DNA from: a virus
Reading direction: 5' to 3' (one strand)
Virus record (IMG/VR): IMGVR_UViG_3300020438_000215
Span: 1-27,880 of that record
DNA length: 27,880 bases
Below are positions 462-16,997 of this stretch, piece after piece. Position numbers and translations under genes: made by a program. The first letter of the stretch is position 1. Each line of letters starts with the position of its first letter. Below the pieces are notes generated by a model. It saw only the letters and a program-made list of their open reading frames with translations. It was not told the DNA's origin and searched no databases.

Positions 462-2057
462 CTATATAATTATGGGCATTGGATCTTGCCAATCATCATC
501 ATCTTCAAGTTTGGCACCCAATGACTCTTCCATTGTAGCATCATATTTGGTTAAAAAGTCTGTCATACGCACTACTAACAACAATGCTGATACTAAATCG
601 TCATGCTCTCCTGATTTTGCTTCAAAAGAATTGCCTTTTGCTACAAATACTTTAAGTTCTCTTATGAGTGGTTTAGAATATAGTGTGATTTTATCAGCTT
701 CTACCCACTGTTTAAGTTTTGAACAAGCAGTGACTTTCGACTTGTTGGTTGTATTGTAACCTTTACGCACTACTCTACGTTGTTGACCACCTTTACGTGG
801 TTCATGTAAGAAATATCCAGGAAATTTATCTTCGCCCATTTCGTCAACAGTTACAATTGCGGCTTCACCAAGTGTATTATTTTCAATTGTCCAATATATT
901 TCTGGATTTGGTGTACCACTTGCTCGTAACTGTTGATCTAGTTCTTTGAGTATGCTGTGCATAACTCTAACTTGCCCCTGGATAGGCGTTTTATTATGTT
1001 GCCATTCAGCAACTTGTTTAAAATCTGGTAGGCTAAACACTTGTATAGCGGCATAATCGCCACCTGTACCCAAACACGGGTCTAATGATACAAGATATGT
1101 ATTGCCTTTTTGTACTTTTTGATACCAACGTACTTGTCCGTGTTTCACTAGTGGTTGTGTGCCTTGTAGTGTAACTAATTTTATACCATCAATAAGTGTT
1201 TCATCAAATGCGATAAATTCACATTCATGCTCACGTCTAAATCTTTCTTCACCTATACGTTGTCTTTCTTCTTTGGCCCATACTTCATTTCTTTCAGGAT
1301 GCTGACTCCAGTGTACAAACTTCGGTCTAAAACCATTCAGTCCTACATCTGCTGGATTACCATATTCGTCTTGTAATTTGTTAGCACCTCTCCACAACTG
1401 TGCAAATAGATCATCATCATTATTTGGTGTTGATGTAATAATACATTTACCACCTGTTGACAATGTTGGAGATAGTGAAGTCCAAAATTCTCGTGCTTTG
1501 TTCTGTGGTTCTACGAATGCAAACTCATCCATGTATATCATTGATATGGACATACCACGTCCTGTTGTTTCTGTGGTTGTTTGTGCTATAATTCTTGACC
1601 CATTATCAAAATCCATCGACCCTTTATTATAACTTGTTACTCCACACCTAATATAATCTGGTGTTTCTTCATATGCAAACCTTACACGTTGCATAATATC
1701 CTGTGCACCTTGATATTTGTGTGCCGCAATTAATATTAATGTGTCTGGATGAAACATTGCATACCATAATAAGTATCCTGCCGCACAGGTTGTCTTACCT
1801 GTTTGCCTTGCACACATGGCAATAGCAAATCTATATCCATTGTATGTTTCTAATAGTTCTTCTTGAAATGGATATGGATCAAATTTCATACGTCCTTTAG
1901 TAGGATGTTGAATCCACATGTGTGATTTCATAAAATGTATGTAACCTGTTTCTAAATCTGCACACAGTTTTAAATCTTGTAACTGTTCTGCTGTGTATTT
2001 AGATTTTGAATATGCTTTTTTGACTAGGTTACCTTCTAAAACTTTACTACGTGCCAT
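462..2057 (-). CDS. gp17: Terminase large subunit, gp17 (packaging ATPase and nuclease)
   Basis: This is the motor that pumps DNA through the portal and cuts the concatemer. The 531-aa length is somewhat below T4 gp17 (610 aa). The N-terminal ATPase shows a Walker A variant CARQTGKTT at residues 82-90, a Walker B with catalytic acid MIYMDEFA at 173-180 (D177, E178), and the coupling motif IITSTPN at 206-212. The C-terminal RNase H-like nuclease shows the acidic triad: SLDP (D326), IENN (E392) and EHDD (D486/D487). The long T4 N-terminal extension is absent. The start MARSKVLEGN is the first ATG after a perfect late-promoter core with no Shine-Dalgarno site. Unlike in T4, gp16 is not adjacent; five small genes separate the two subunits. 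Confidence 0.95.
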   Translation of the reverse strand: MARSKVLEGNLVKKAYSKSKYTAEQLQDLKLCADLETGYIHFMKSHMWIQHPTKGRMKFDPYPFQEELLETYNGYRFAIAMCARQTGKTTCAAGYLLWYAMFHPDTLILIAAHKYQGAQDIMQRVRFAYEETPDYIRCGVTSYNKGSMDFDNGSRIIAQTTTETTGRGMSISMIYMDEFAFVEPQNKAREFWTSLSPTLSTGGKCIITSTPNNDDDLFAQLWRGANKLQDEYGNPADVGLNGFRPKFVHWSQHPERNEVWAKEERQRIGEERFRREHECEFIAFDETLIDGIKLVTLQGTQPLVKHGQVRWYQKVQKGNTYLVSLDPCLGTGGDYAAIQVFSLPDFKQVAEWQHNKTPIQGQVRVMHSILKELDQQLRASGTPNPEIYWTIENNTLGEAAIVTVDEMGEDKFPGYFLHEPRKGGQQRRVVRKGYNTTNKSKVTACSKLKQWVEADKITLYSKPLIRELKVFVAKGNSFEAKSGEHDDLVSALLLVVRMTDFLTKYDATMEESLGAKLEDDDDWQDPMPIII

Positions 2058-2062
2058 ACTTG

Positions 2063-2070
2063 TATTTATA
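2063..2070 (-). promoter_or_regulatory. T4-type late promoter core, leaderless design (gp17)
   Basis: Perfect TATAAATA on the minus strand, then CAAGT, then the gp17 ATG at 2057. No room for a ribosome binding site between the predicted start of transcription and the start codon. Confidence 0.7.
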
Positions 2071-2086
2071 CTAATTAAATGCGTAC

Positions 2087-2350
2087 TTAATGGATATTGA
2101 ATATATCGTCCACAGGATTGAATTCTACTTGTTTTAAATTACCTGCATATGACAAATATATGTCCTTTATACGTGCTTCAACATTGTCATTCCAATGATT
2201 TAAAAATTTGTGTGCTTTTGGAAACTGTGGAGGTATGTCTGAAAATTGCCACATGAATAATTGTAGGATACTTTCGTAATCCGGCATCCAATAATACACT
2301 TTTATTGTTGTTATTCTTGCATCTTTGAGTATTTGATCTCTAATACGCAT
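2087..2350 (-). CDS. Usg-like family protein
   Basis: An 87-aa protein whose core pattern (IKVYYWMPDYESILQLFMWQ, then D-PPQFPKAHKFLNHW and a V-RIKDIYL-YA strand, ending near the C-terminus with VDDIFNIH) matches my memory of the Usg family. In Caulobacter the usg gene lies beside trpF-trpB-trpA, and the family is widespread in Alphaproteobacteria with no established biochemical role. Here the full family length is present, with no truncation. The gene starts at ATG 2350, five bases after a late-promoter-like core, and is followed after a 29-bp gap (2058-2086) by gp17. It is likely an auxiliary gene captured from an alphaproteobacterial host. Family assignment is by pattern recognition only; the role in infection is unknown. 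Confidence 0.7.
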   Translation of the reverse strand: MRIRDQILKDARITTIKVYYWMPDYESILQLFMWQFSDIPPQFPKAHKFLNHWNDNVEARIKDIYLSYAGNLKQVEFNPVDDIFNIH

Positions 2351-2368: not shown

Positions 2369-2740
2369 TTAGGATACAAGTAATATGATAATATAATAAG
2401 TTAGATAATGTAGACCTTGGTCAATTGACGATAAAAACCAATAACCTTTTGATGGAGATTTTATACCAAGTCTTTGTTGTGTTGAACTTTTTAGGAAATC
2501 AATATGCCAATGTGCTAGATAATCACATATACCAAAAAGAATTGCCAACGGCCATGGTATAAAAAACAACAACACAAATATTGTACCAAGCCCATGTTGT
2601 ACATAATGCACCTGTGCTGACAAAGAAGTATATATAGATTTTTTTTGATTATAGGTTAATAGACTTTGAATCCATAAATCAATAACGCAATGTTTGATTA
2701 GCAGGAAAAAAAATAAACTACTTACAACAACCGCAGTCAC
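2369..2740 (-). CDS. Small polytopic membrane protein, DUF3307-like
   Basis: A 123-aa hydrophobic protein with about three to four membrane segments: roughly residues 3-18, 48-70 and 108-122, with a weaker one near 75-85. Its conserved-looking polar positions inside hydrophobic stretches are the family signature I recall for DUF3307: an N-terminal K-H-x-x-x-D (KHCVIDLWIQ), a central HYVQHG, a Y-L-A-H-x-x-I-D-x-x-K (YLAHWHIDFLK) and a C-terminal DQGLHYLTYY. The start is probably GTG at 2740, because no ATG exists in frame. It overlaps the end of the cysteine-rich peptide gene by 23 bp, which suggests translational coupling. Function is unknown; membrane location is a firm inference from composition. 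Confidence 0.65.
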   Translation of the reverse strand: MTAVVVSSLFFFLLIKHCVIDLWIQSLLTYNQKKSIYTSLSAQVHYVQHGLGTIFVLLFFIPWPLAILFGICDYLAHWHIDFLKSSTQQRLGIKSPSKGYWFLSSIDQGLHYLTYYIIILLVS

Positions 2741-2798
2741 AATGTTTACATTCTTCTGGACAATTGTGATTACACTTTTCGCACTTACTGTTGTTCAT
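2718..2798 (-). CDS. 26-residue cysteine-rich (metallothionein-like) peptide
   Basis: An ORF from ATG 2798 to TAG 2718 encodes 26 residues with eight cysteines (positions 6, 9, 13, 17, 20, 22, 24, 25) and two histidines (11, 19). Cysteines are spaced C-x2-C, C-x3-C, C-x2-C-x-C-x-C-C, which is the type of spacing seen in metallothioneins and zinc-binding peptides. The start codon overlaps the 3' end of the preceding acidic-protein gene by 14 bp, and its 3' end overlaps the next gene by 23 bp, so it sits as an overlapping link in a four-gene chain. Such a cysteine density is improbable by chance in AT-rich DNA. Metal binding is inference; no homologue is known to me. Confidence 0.6.
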   Translation of the reverse strand: MNNSKCEKCNHNCPEECKHCDCGCCK

Positions 2799-3105
2799 TT
2801 TTGAAACTTTCGTATTCTTCTGCTAAACGTGATTCTTTATCTTCTAAAGATTCATCAGTTGCAATTGGATTGTCTCCTGATCTTGCAGGAACAAACTTTA
2901 ACTTACGTTGTGCTTTTTTAGATGGTGTTAATGCATCAATGTCAATCTCTTGCTCATTTGGTTCATTAGTACCAGCAACTTCTACTTCTACTTCTTCTTG
3001 TGCAACTTCATCTGCTTTTGGTTGTACAACAAGAATAGTTGGCTGAATACCAGCAAGTGAAAGTAATCTTGACAATGCATCATTCTCATTAATTTTGTCT
3101 GACAT
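2785..3105 (-). CDS. Small acidic phage protein, possible core or scaffold component
   Basis: A 106-aa protein, highly charged, with an acidic and Val/Glu-rich middle (about residues 30-58), a basic patch SKKAQRKLKF near 62-71 and an acidic helix at the end. Its N-terminal stretch DALSRLLSLAGI resembles the C-terminal ELRKLAGL tail of this phage's own gp22 scaffold, a short helix with Leu-Ala-Gly that may mark core proteins. The gene overlaps the upstream gene by one base (TAATG) and has an AAGGGAAA-type ribosome site before ATG 3105. No family is recognised with confidence. Its position among head genes makes a scaffold or internal role plausible, but this is inference. Confidence 0.7.
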   Translation of the reverse strand: MSDKINENDALSRLLSLAGIQPTILVVQPKADEVAQEEVEVEVAGTNEPNEQEIDIDALTPSKKAQRKLKFVPARSGDNPIATDESLEDKESRLAEEYESFKNEQQ

Positions 3106-3674
3106 TACTTTTTCCCTTTCGCAATATAACTTGTAACTTTTGATTCTTGTAACCCAGTTACTACTTCGACATTGCCGCCTTCATTTTTTTGTGCTTTAGC
3201 AAGTCCTTTTAAAAAACTTTGTTTTGAATCTTCACTATGTACAATACTAGAAGCATCTTCTGAATCTTCTTTTTTATAATCCTGACCCATAATTGGCTCA
3301 TATGCATCATCTGTTTTTTCAGCATTTAGTTTGTCTTGTTCAGCCTGTAAAGGATCACCTTCGTGGCAAACAACAACTGATTCATATGGTAAACCCATAT
3401 GATCTGATAAATGTCTTGATAATGTTTGATATGAAACTGGCATAGCAGTTGTAACTTCAATTATAGTTACTTCTGTGTTGGTAACGTTTGCTGGAAAATC
3501 CAAAGGATGTTCCTGCATGATAGTTTTTTTAGGACTACCTACTTTTACTACATTGTACGGAGCCAATGCTAATTCCATTGCATCTAAATGTGAATCTTCA
3601 AGTACACCAGCAATTTTTACTTTGAATGTGTACTCTTTTACTGCTTCTGCTAGATATTGTTTAAATGTTTTCAT
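3105..3674 (-). CDS. Candidate internal head protein with T4-type capsid targeting sequence
   Basis: The 189-aa product begins MKTFKQYLAEA, which closely resembles the capsid targeting sequence of T4 internal proteins (IPIII begins MKTYQEFIAEA). In T4, gp21 cleaves such leaders after an L/I-x-E triplet; here L8-A9-E10 followed by A11 fits that rule. The rest is a folded-looking domain (about residues 15-112, with alternating strands such as EYTFKVKIAGVLED and EVTIIEVTTAM) followed by a charged, low-complexity tail. It has a late promoter, a leader and an AGGA ribosome site, as expected for an abundant structural product. It lies directly after gp16. The targeting peptide is clearly visible; packaging into the head is inference and the cargo function is unknown. 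Confidence 0.75.
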   Translation of the reverse strand: MKTFKQYLAEAVKEYTFKVKIAGVLEDSHLDAMELALAPYNVVKVGSPKKTIMQEHPLDFPANVTNTEVTIIEVTTAMPVSYQTLSRHLSDHMGLPYESVVVCHEGDPLQAEQDKLNAEKTDDAYEPIMGQDYKKEDSEDASSIVHSEDSKQSFLKGLAKAQKNEGGNVEVVTGLQESKVTSYIAKGKK

Positions 3675-3692: not shown

Positions 3693-4280
3693 TTATTTAT
3701 CTTTTTTATCGTTATCTACTCTGTCTAAGATCTGCTTTAACAGTTCATTACGATCACCCACAACATAGCCTTCTCCTTCAACAATATCTGCTGAACTATC
3801 CCCTGTGTTGTTCATTTGATCTACTCTTTGTTTCTTTAATTGTAGCTCAACCATGCGTAATTTCTTTTCTAATTTAGCATTTTTGGCTTCAACAGCATTT
3901 TTAAGCATTGTAGACGCTACTTCAAATAACTTTCCAGAATGTCTAACTTCTACATTCATTCCTAAATTCATTAGATCTTGGTATGATTTCATGGCTTCTG
4001 TGGCGTATGTATCCATGTCTTGATCTTCAGCATCTAACCCAGTAACTTGGGGTAATGCACGATCTATTTTTTCAGCAGTAGTAATTGCTTTTAAGATTGG
4101 TGTTGCAGAGGTGTCCTCATTGCTCGTTTCTTCAACTTGGTCACTTGCCCCCGTTTGAATTTCTTCGCCGCTGTTTTGATGTTGCGTATCTTCATTTTTG
4201 GTTTCATTTTTTGGCTCATCTAAACCCTCCTTGGCTTGATCAATAATATCTTCCATTGGTATTTTATTTTCATCTGTCAT
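3693..4280 (-). CDS. gp16: Terminase small subunit, gp16
   Basis: A 195-aa protein that would recognise DNA and regulate gp17. The first 75 residues are an acidic disordered region. The central part (about 90-155, TYATEAMKSYQDLMNLGMNV followed by a SGKLFEVASTMLKNAVEAKN helix and a long charged coiled coil KLEKKLRMVELQLKKQRVDQ) follows the T4 gp16 plan, in which a YGVVR-type segment precedes a helical oligomerisation hairpin. The C-terminal YVVGDRNELLKQILDRV matches the F-M-G-S-P-T-E-L-type tail of gp16. T4 gp16 has 164 aa. The gene has its own late promoter and leader. The next gene is the internal-head candidate rather than gp17. Confidence 0.8.
   Translation of the reverse strand: MTDENKIPMEDIIDQAKEGLDEPKNETKNEDTQHQNSGEEIQTGASDQVEETSNEDTSATPILKAITTAEKIDRALPQVTGLDAEDQDMDTYATEAMKSYQDLMNLGMNVEVRHSGKLFEVASTMLKNAVEAKNAKLEKKLRMVELQLKKQRVDQMNNTGDSSADIVEGEGYVVGDRNELLKQILDRVDNDKKDK
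3694..3701 (-). promoter_or_regulatory. T4-type late promoter core with leader (internal head protein)
   Basis: Minus strand GATAAATA, spacer AAAAT, then leader ATAGGAAACTAACG before ATG 3674. The predicted mRNA starts with ATAGGA, giving a Shine-Dalgarno site. Confidence 0.6.
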
Positions 4281-16989: not shown

Positions 16990-16997
16990 TATAAATA
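16990..16997 (+). promoter_or_regulatory. T4-type late promoter core, leaderless design (Nudix gene)
   Basis: Perfect TATAAATA, then TTAGT, then ATG 17003. It decides the start of the Nudix gene: a longer frame with TTG at 16967 would run across the promoter. Confidence 0.7.

Follow-up and report, generated by a model that had tools for sequence, protein, structure and literature searches.

The window, a viral stretch of 27,880 nucleotides analysed here in full, carries a structural gene cluster of the T4 superfamily, encoded mostly on the minus strand and comprising a gp20-like portal gene, gp21 to gp23, gp18- and gp19-like genes, and gp17; the names gp18 to gp23 are our presumptive reading of the list of open reading frames. 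Within this cluster, a late operon opens with the gene for a 189-aa virion structural protein (3105-3674, minus strand; phrog_14802, E 9e-10), continues with a 106-aa gene of the head/packaging type (2785-3105, minus strand; weak PHROGs virion structural match, E 0.006; conserved in the related loci L122, L123, L126, L127, and L129) and then with a 26-aa Cys-rich micropeptide gene (2718-2798, minus strand), and closes with the gene for a 123-aa DUF3307 membrane protein (2369-2740, minus strand; PF11750, E 8e-6; phrog_2470, E 4e-15). Downstream lie the genes for an 87-aa Usg-like protein (2087-2350, minus strand; PF06233, E 4e-20) and for gp17, the large subunit of the terminase (462-2057, minus strand; phrog_36964, E 6e-126). 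The genes that flank the micropeptide gene are of the head and packaging kind.

A pattern scan finds a T4-type late promoter box, GATAAATA, at 3694-3701 on the minus strand, upstream of the 189-aa, 106-aa, micropeptide, and DUF3307 genes. Further minus-strand boxes are found at 2356-2363 (AATAAATA), marking the next transcription unit, which begins with the Usg-like gene, and at 2063-2070 (TATAAATA) before gp17. The micropeptide gene has no late box of its own next to its ATG and is a member of the operon behind GATAAATA at 3701; it is nevertheless a late gene in the T4-like sense, since a NATAAATA box drives its transcription unit. Cyanomyoviruses and T4 use NATAAATA/TATAAATA as their late promoter, NATAAATA being the cyanophage consensus (PMC2984593), and in T4 the late box occupies positions -13 to -6 of the transcript (PMC1524935). 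Four boxes of this kind in the window (2063-2070, 2356-2363, 449-456, and 16990-16997) stop precisely 5 nt short of an in-frame ATG, that of gp17, the Usg-like gene, a 147-aa ORF, and a 140-aa Nudix-like frame, respectively, and leaderless late mRNAs are therefore predicted in this phage. As a separate observation, the Usg-like gene, which has a late box to itself, is the immediate upstream neighbor of gp17, and its orthologues adjoin gp17 in seven related loci (L122, L123, L126, L129, L135, L136, and L138), while tblastn finds no Usg-like protein among 50,697 deposited phages. Usg (PF06233) is an alphaproteobacterial family, and the gene may be a clue to the host and to a role yet to be explored.

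Read from 2798 to 2718 on the minus strand (ATG-AAC-AAC-AGT-AAG-TGC...TAG), the micropeptide gene encodes MNNSKCEKCNHNCPEECKHCDCGCCK, and translation bears out what the initial annotation had described: 26 residues with eight Cys (positions 6, 9, 13, 17, 20, 22, 24, and 25) and two His (11 and 19), two C-x2-C motifs (C6-E-K-C9 and C17-K-H-C20), two C-x3-C motifs, and a C-x-C-x-CC end (C20-D-C22-G-C24-C25). Cys thus makes up 8 of 26 residues (31%), Phe, Trp, and Tyr are absent, and there is no aliphatic residue beyond Met1. The initial annotation named no strand; the plus strand across 2718-2798 gives a quite different reading. The gene overlaps both of its neighbors, as had been claimed: by 14 nt the upstream 106-aa ORF, whose end falls inside it, and by 23 nt the downstream DUF3307 ORF, which starts with GTG at 2740. 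The latter overlap is real because this GTG aligns with the starts of DUF3307 homologs in L122, L123, L126, and L127, and with an ATG in L129 and L138. We also note that the DUF3307 frame stays open upstream of the GTG across the whole insert described below (2695-2785, TTVSAKSVITIVQKNVNIV-) without a usual start codon, which may be a leftover of the insert's origin; a weak 24-nt internal repetition, seen by eye in the insert, was considered as its origin as well.

Conservation of the gene at this locus is narrow. Judged by gp17, the nearest relatives are L124 (100%; the same contig as L121, with 5 differences in 6,088 nt) and L125 (98%), and both encode the same peptide, L125 with one synonymous change (AAG/AAA). 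In L126 (96%), L127 and L128 (94%), L138 (89%), L129 (88%), and L123, the flanking genes are kept and a clean gap of about 50 nt takes the place of the peptide gene. Because the gap is clean between kept flanks, and because a single gain or loss suffices on the gp17 tree (modest support), the pattern at this locus reads as an insertion or a loss, not as an eroding ORF. Within the window lineage, the three copies differ by only one substitution, which is synonymous. A search between gp16 and gp17 of relatives, as the initial annotation had proposed, thus returns the gene only from two near-identical viruses, the other kin being without it. What that annotation had named as evidence against the gene, namely Cys codons not conserved where the flanking genes are, is literally what the close kin show, but the family is conserved at other loci of other T4-like phages.

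At least 13 other viral contigs carry a free-standing ORF of 26-31 aa with the arrangement C-x2-C-x-H-x-C-P-x2-C-x(2-4)-C-x-C-x-CC. The pattern C-x2-C-x-H-x-C-P-E-x-C recovered the window type together with L333, L347, L350, L358, L348, L349, and L353, and a second pattern, with at most seven Cys positions and the His, brought in at least six further members (L405, L367, L419, L463, L379, and L459); MENKYCEDCGHDCPEVCQECSCDCKCCE, MSTENKYCEDCGHDCPDMCQDSACDCKCCN, MENKCEDCGHKCPEECKESSCDCKCC, and MENKCNDCGHECPIECKEQACDCECC are examples. In the family alignment (A1), members have 8-9 Cys, at most one Tyr, and almost no hydrophobic residues, eight Cys and one His are invariant, and all length differences are multiples of three. 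With a two-residue deletion placed in the linker, every Cys of the window peptide aligns with one of the eight invariant family Cys. The window peptide also shares the Cys/His spacing that defines the family and, like all members, has its ATG 4-8 codons ahead of the first Cys and its stop 0-1 codons past the last. The promoter, being a feature of context, was left out of this definition.

The surroundings of the free-standing members are of two kinds. In L353 and L405, the gene comes directly after gp23, whose closest counterpart is a cyanophage gp23, and after a hairpin that resembles a terminator and has a run of T. The hairpins lie at about 2330-2375 in L353 and about 6245-6290 in L405, and within about 15 nt of them come a late box and then the peptide gene. 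Since the hairpin after gp23 is followed by a late box, the peptide gene behind the major capsid gene seems to be transcribed as a unit of its own. The remaining members have a variable 360-490-aa gene on one side and a DUF6267 gene on the other, near a gp41-like helicase, and the DUF6267 neighbors are closest to those of Pelagibacter phage HTVC008M and of cyanophages. In L333, L348, L349, L367, and L379, a hypervariable slot upstream of the peptide gene is bounded by an 81-82-aa gene and the DUF6267 gene; it holds unrelated-looking proteins of 360-490 aa in otherwise similar phages, with one weak PDDEXK match, and appears to be a site where cassettes of nuclease or exclusion genes insert. Each of the free-standing copies (13 of 13) has TATAAATA with its end 4-7 nt ahead of the ATG, where about 0.5% would be expected for each. 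With the box at -13 to -6, transcription of these genes would begin no more than about 2 nt from the ATG and give nearly leaderless mRNAs. The overlaps at both ends, although real in the window, are peculiar to this insertion; the other members stand alone, each behind a late promoter of its own.

Because the search patterns fixed parts of the Cys/His spacing, only unselected features count as independent evidence of homology. The C-x-C-x-CC end is absent from the pattern C-x2-C-x-H-x-C-P-E-x-C, yet the family members matching this pattern have that end and an immediate stop. In addition, C24 and C25 lie outside all patterns that brought in another member, and both are invariant and encoded by TGT or TGC only; Cys codon variation throughout the family is limited to these two codons. 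The pooled pN/pS is 0.24 overall and 0.36 in columns outside every search pattern, where each pair that includes the window offers only 4-5 synonymous sites that are strictly unselected. In the comparison of L333 with L353, pN is 0.09-0.15 and pS is almost saturated. When a profile is built without the window, the window peptide ranks first among the window frames with an E-value of 4.5e-5 (runner-up, 1.3), a match that carries a large HMMER composition-bias correction of 26 bits, and together with its near-identical copies it is the best non-member in 120,688 frames from 4.1 Mb (E 0.0015-0.007). None of 20,000 shuffled peptides attains its profile score, and 77 of 20,000 do so when the Cys positions are held fixed. 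We are highly confident, on these grounds, that the window peptide and the free-standing copies form one family.

Frames of this composition are rare by chance. With an ATG start, 20-60 aa, at least eight Cys, and at least 25% Cys required, 300 dinucleotide-shuffled windows contain two such ORFs (0.007 per window), and 700 kb of gp17 loci, fetched regardless of Cys, contain no such ORF; the shuffles and the gp17 loci together make a chance origin of the Cys-rich ORF unlikely. A first, loose Cys pattern matched only low-complexity frames. A second pattern gave some 30 look-alike peptides of 29 aa (MTDEK..CPCECEDCDCC), which were rejected as relatives because a conserved 147-aa protein has its Val/Ala-rich signal peptide encoded there in another frame, so that each Cys is xxT|G[CT]N of the 147-aa gene; they do not score against the family profile at E<=1. 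The look-alike ORFs, 29-48 aa long, occur in L212, L210, L227, L243, L288, and about 25 other loci, with recurring start and stop, over a 147-aa phage protein that begins MKK..VPVVPNFTQGSM.., and each is probably a by-product of Val/Ala codons after T. In the look-alikes and the window peptide alike, the Cys codons are T|G[CT]N against a Val or Ala codon of the next frame. However, the by-product explanation does not carry over to the window peptide, since the DUF3307 frame has no ATG, GTG, or TTG before 2740 and since, between flanking genes of at least 60 aa, the intervals of the free-standing relatives hold the peptide gene alone.

One may argue that an insert of about 50 nt merely opened an untranslated Cys-rich frame, and that its likeness to other peptides is convergence picked out by the search patterns; the absence of the gene from all but two near-identical kin, the Val/Ala codons of the DUF3307 frame behind every Cys codon, and the analogous spurious frames over a signal peptide in other phages would all suit this view, but it is extremely unlikely given that the leave-one-out profile and the shuffles contradict it, that the start, the length, E7, and the terminal CC-stop match members chosen without those features, that the spurious frames fail to score against the family, and that the homologs stand free between genes, each with its own late promoter. 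The ORF is thus almost certainly a real coding gene, which would be translated during infection.

The family lies outside current collections. The window peptide has no match in Pfam up to E 10, metallothionein models included, and three other members have none in Pfam either; PHROGs yields no family match (one family hit, at E 2-7, is noise); and no match is found in NCBIfam, for which the window peptide was searched, in PADLOC, or, by sequence, in PDB. tblastn with family members and a look-alike against INPHARED (50,697 deposited phage records) returns only weak, partial matches, none of them credible, and profile searches of the whole records find no intact member in HTVC008M, Melnitz, C48C1, S-TIM4, DSL-LC02, or P-TIM40, the match in HTVC008M having an internal stop. 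A scan of genome contigs gave ten matches, none of them an ATG-opened micropeptide, with a pattern that demanded C20 and so leaves room for the commoner type in bacteria. No paper on a phage metallothionein was found in the literature searched, which covered few subscription papers. From its sequence, this appears to be a new family of phage micropeptides that resembles metallothioneins and stands outside every described metallothionein family.

Three functions had been proposed for the peptide at the outset: a metallothionein-like metal buffer, a zinc ribbon adaptor, and a redox peptide. The first fits best, the second is the main rival, and the third is the least likely. Metallothioneins are matched in several respects. 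The peptide is very small and falls within their broad range of size and composition (below 10 kDa, about 20-30% Cys or more), it has C-x-C, CC, and C-x2-C motifs and almost no hydrophobic residues, and the window copy is without aromatics, where metallothioneins have few or none. Examples of metallothioneins are the 25-residue copper metallothionein of the fungi Neurospora and Agaricus and the bacterial SmtA/BmtA proteins (PF02069); His ligands are also used by bacterial metallothioneins. The phage peptide differs in having no Pfam match, a Cys spacing of its own (C-x2-C-x-H-x-C-P-x2-C...), and a place in T4-like phages under late promoters, and its metal binding is predicted. Since nine conserved ligands fall within about 20 residues that have no hydrophobic core, the peptide would be ordered only by metal. 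A metal-thiolate cluster like that of metallothioneins would account for the conserved Cys and His, for linkers that vary freely, and for the C-x-C-x-CC end, and we consider it very likely that this is a metal-thiolate peptide.

The zinc adaptor, rather unlikely in our judgment, would hold one or two structural Zn in its N-terminal C-x2-C-x-H-x-C knuckle, and perhaps in a second Cys4 site, and would dock on a partner; host RNA polymerase, late-transcription factors, and head proteins are candidates. It draws on the conserved His, the Pro after the third Cys, and the non-ligand residues conserved in most members (E7, Asp, and Gly), all of which suggest a defined fold; on an AlphaFold2 model of the family, in which a beta hairpin forms around the first C-x2-C (pLDDT 69, pTM 0.30); and on weak tblastn matches that include DksA/TraR zinc fingers (E 0.1-2). 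The C-x2-C-G-H of the N-terminal half does resemble the knuckles of zinc ribbon proteins (DksA/TraR, rubredoxin type). However, nine ligands in 20 residues are far beyond the need of one knuckle, the linker residues are free to vary (columns 7, 11, 14-16, and 20), C-x-C-x-CC is a cluster motif rather than a knuckle, hydrophobic or basic surface is lacking, and the peptide is too short for a ribbon core and has no profile or fold match, Foldseek returning nothing for the model among PDB folds. Because AlphaFold2 gives a hairpin only, without a fold or a PDB sequence match, the adaptor stays the main rival. The peptide is probably a buffer rather than an adaptor. A thiol redox or disulfide peptide, whose Cys would form disulfides or serve as a sink for reductant, for instance in lysis or oxidative stress, accords with eight reactive thiols and with the adjacent-Cys and C-x-C motifs but is very unlikely, as no signal peptide is present, so that it would be cytoplasmic and reduced, as the His and the exact spacing are conserved, and as there is no C-x2-C active site in a thioredoxin-like fold.

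Returning to the metallothionein-like reading, we regard a mobile, late-expressed metal-thiolate peptide of a new phage family of 26-31 residues as the probable explanation overall. The gene would move as a small cassette, in most phages with its own T4 late promoter beside the start codon. In the window, the cassette would have been inserted between two genes of a late operon, to be read through from GATAAATA at 3701, probably with coupled translation. The gene resembles the small proteins and morons of T4-like phages (Kyanoviridae type), which are likewise short cassettes between core genes, patchy in sister phages and with their own promoter, although none was found described with a Cys8His core and no PHROGs family corresponds. 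The peptide would be made late in infection together with head and packaging proteins, and would bind about two or three divalent ions such as Zn, or a Cu(I) cluster. It may buffer Zn or Cu freed by the turnover of host proteins, or hold Zn for late phage proteins; the late timing and the linkage to head and packaging genes suggest zinc or copper handling during virion assembly, before lysis. A bolder and more speculative possibility is that these are the first known phage metallothioneins, carried by marine T4-like phages: mobile micropeptides, made from essentially leaderless late mRNAs, that seize host zinc or copper during virion assembly, either stripping host metalloproteins or shielding assembly from freed metal.

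In summary, the initial annotation was right to see a genuine Cys-rich micropeptide gene here, in a marine-type T4-like phage, and a metal-binding role is the best reading of its family and conserved Cys/His frame. A synteny check in close kin alone would have wrongly dismissed this gene. The case also shows that a phage gene family, although conserved, can escape gene callers that apply length cut-offs as well as the family libraries derived from them. Marine microbes are limited by trace metals, and to our knowledge hardly any protein-level tests have addressed how phages control the metal pools of their hosts during lysis. A defined, conserved, and synthesizable family of 26-31 residues under late promoters makes the question of phage metal control directly testable.
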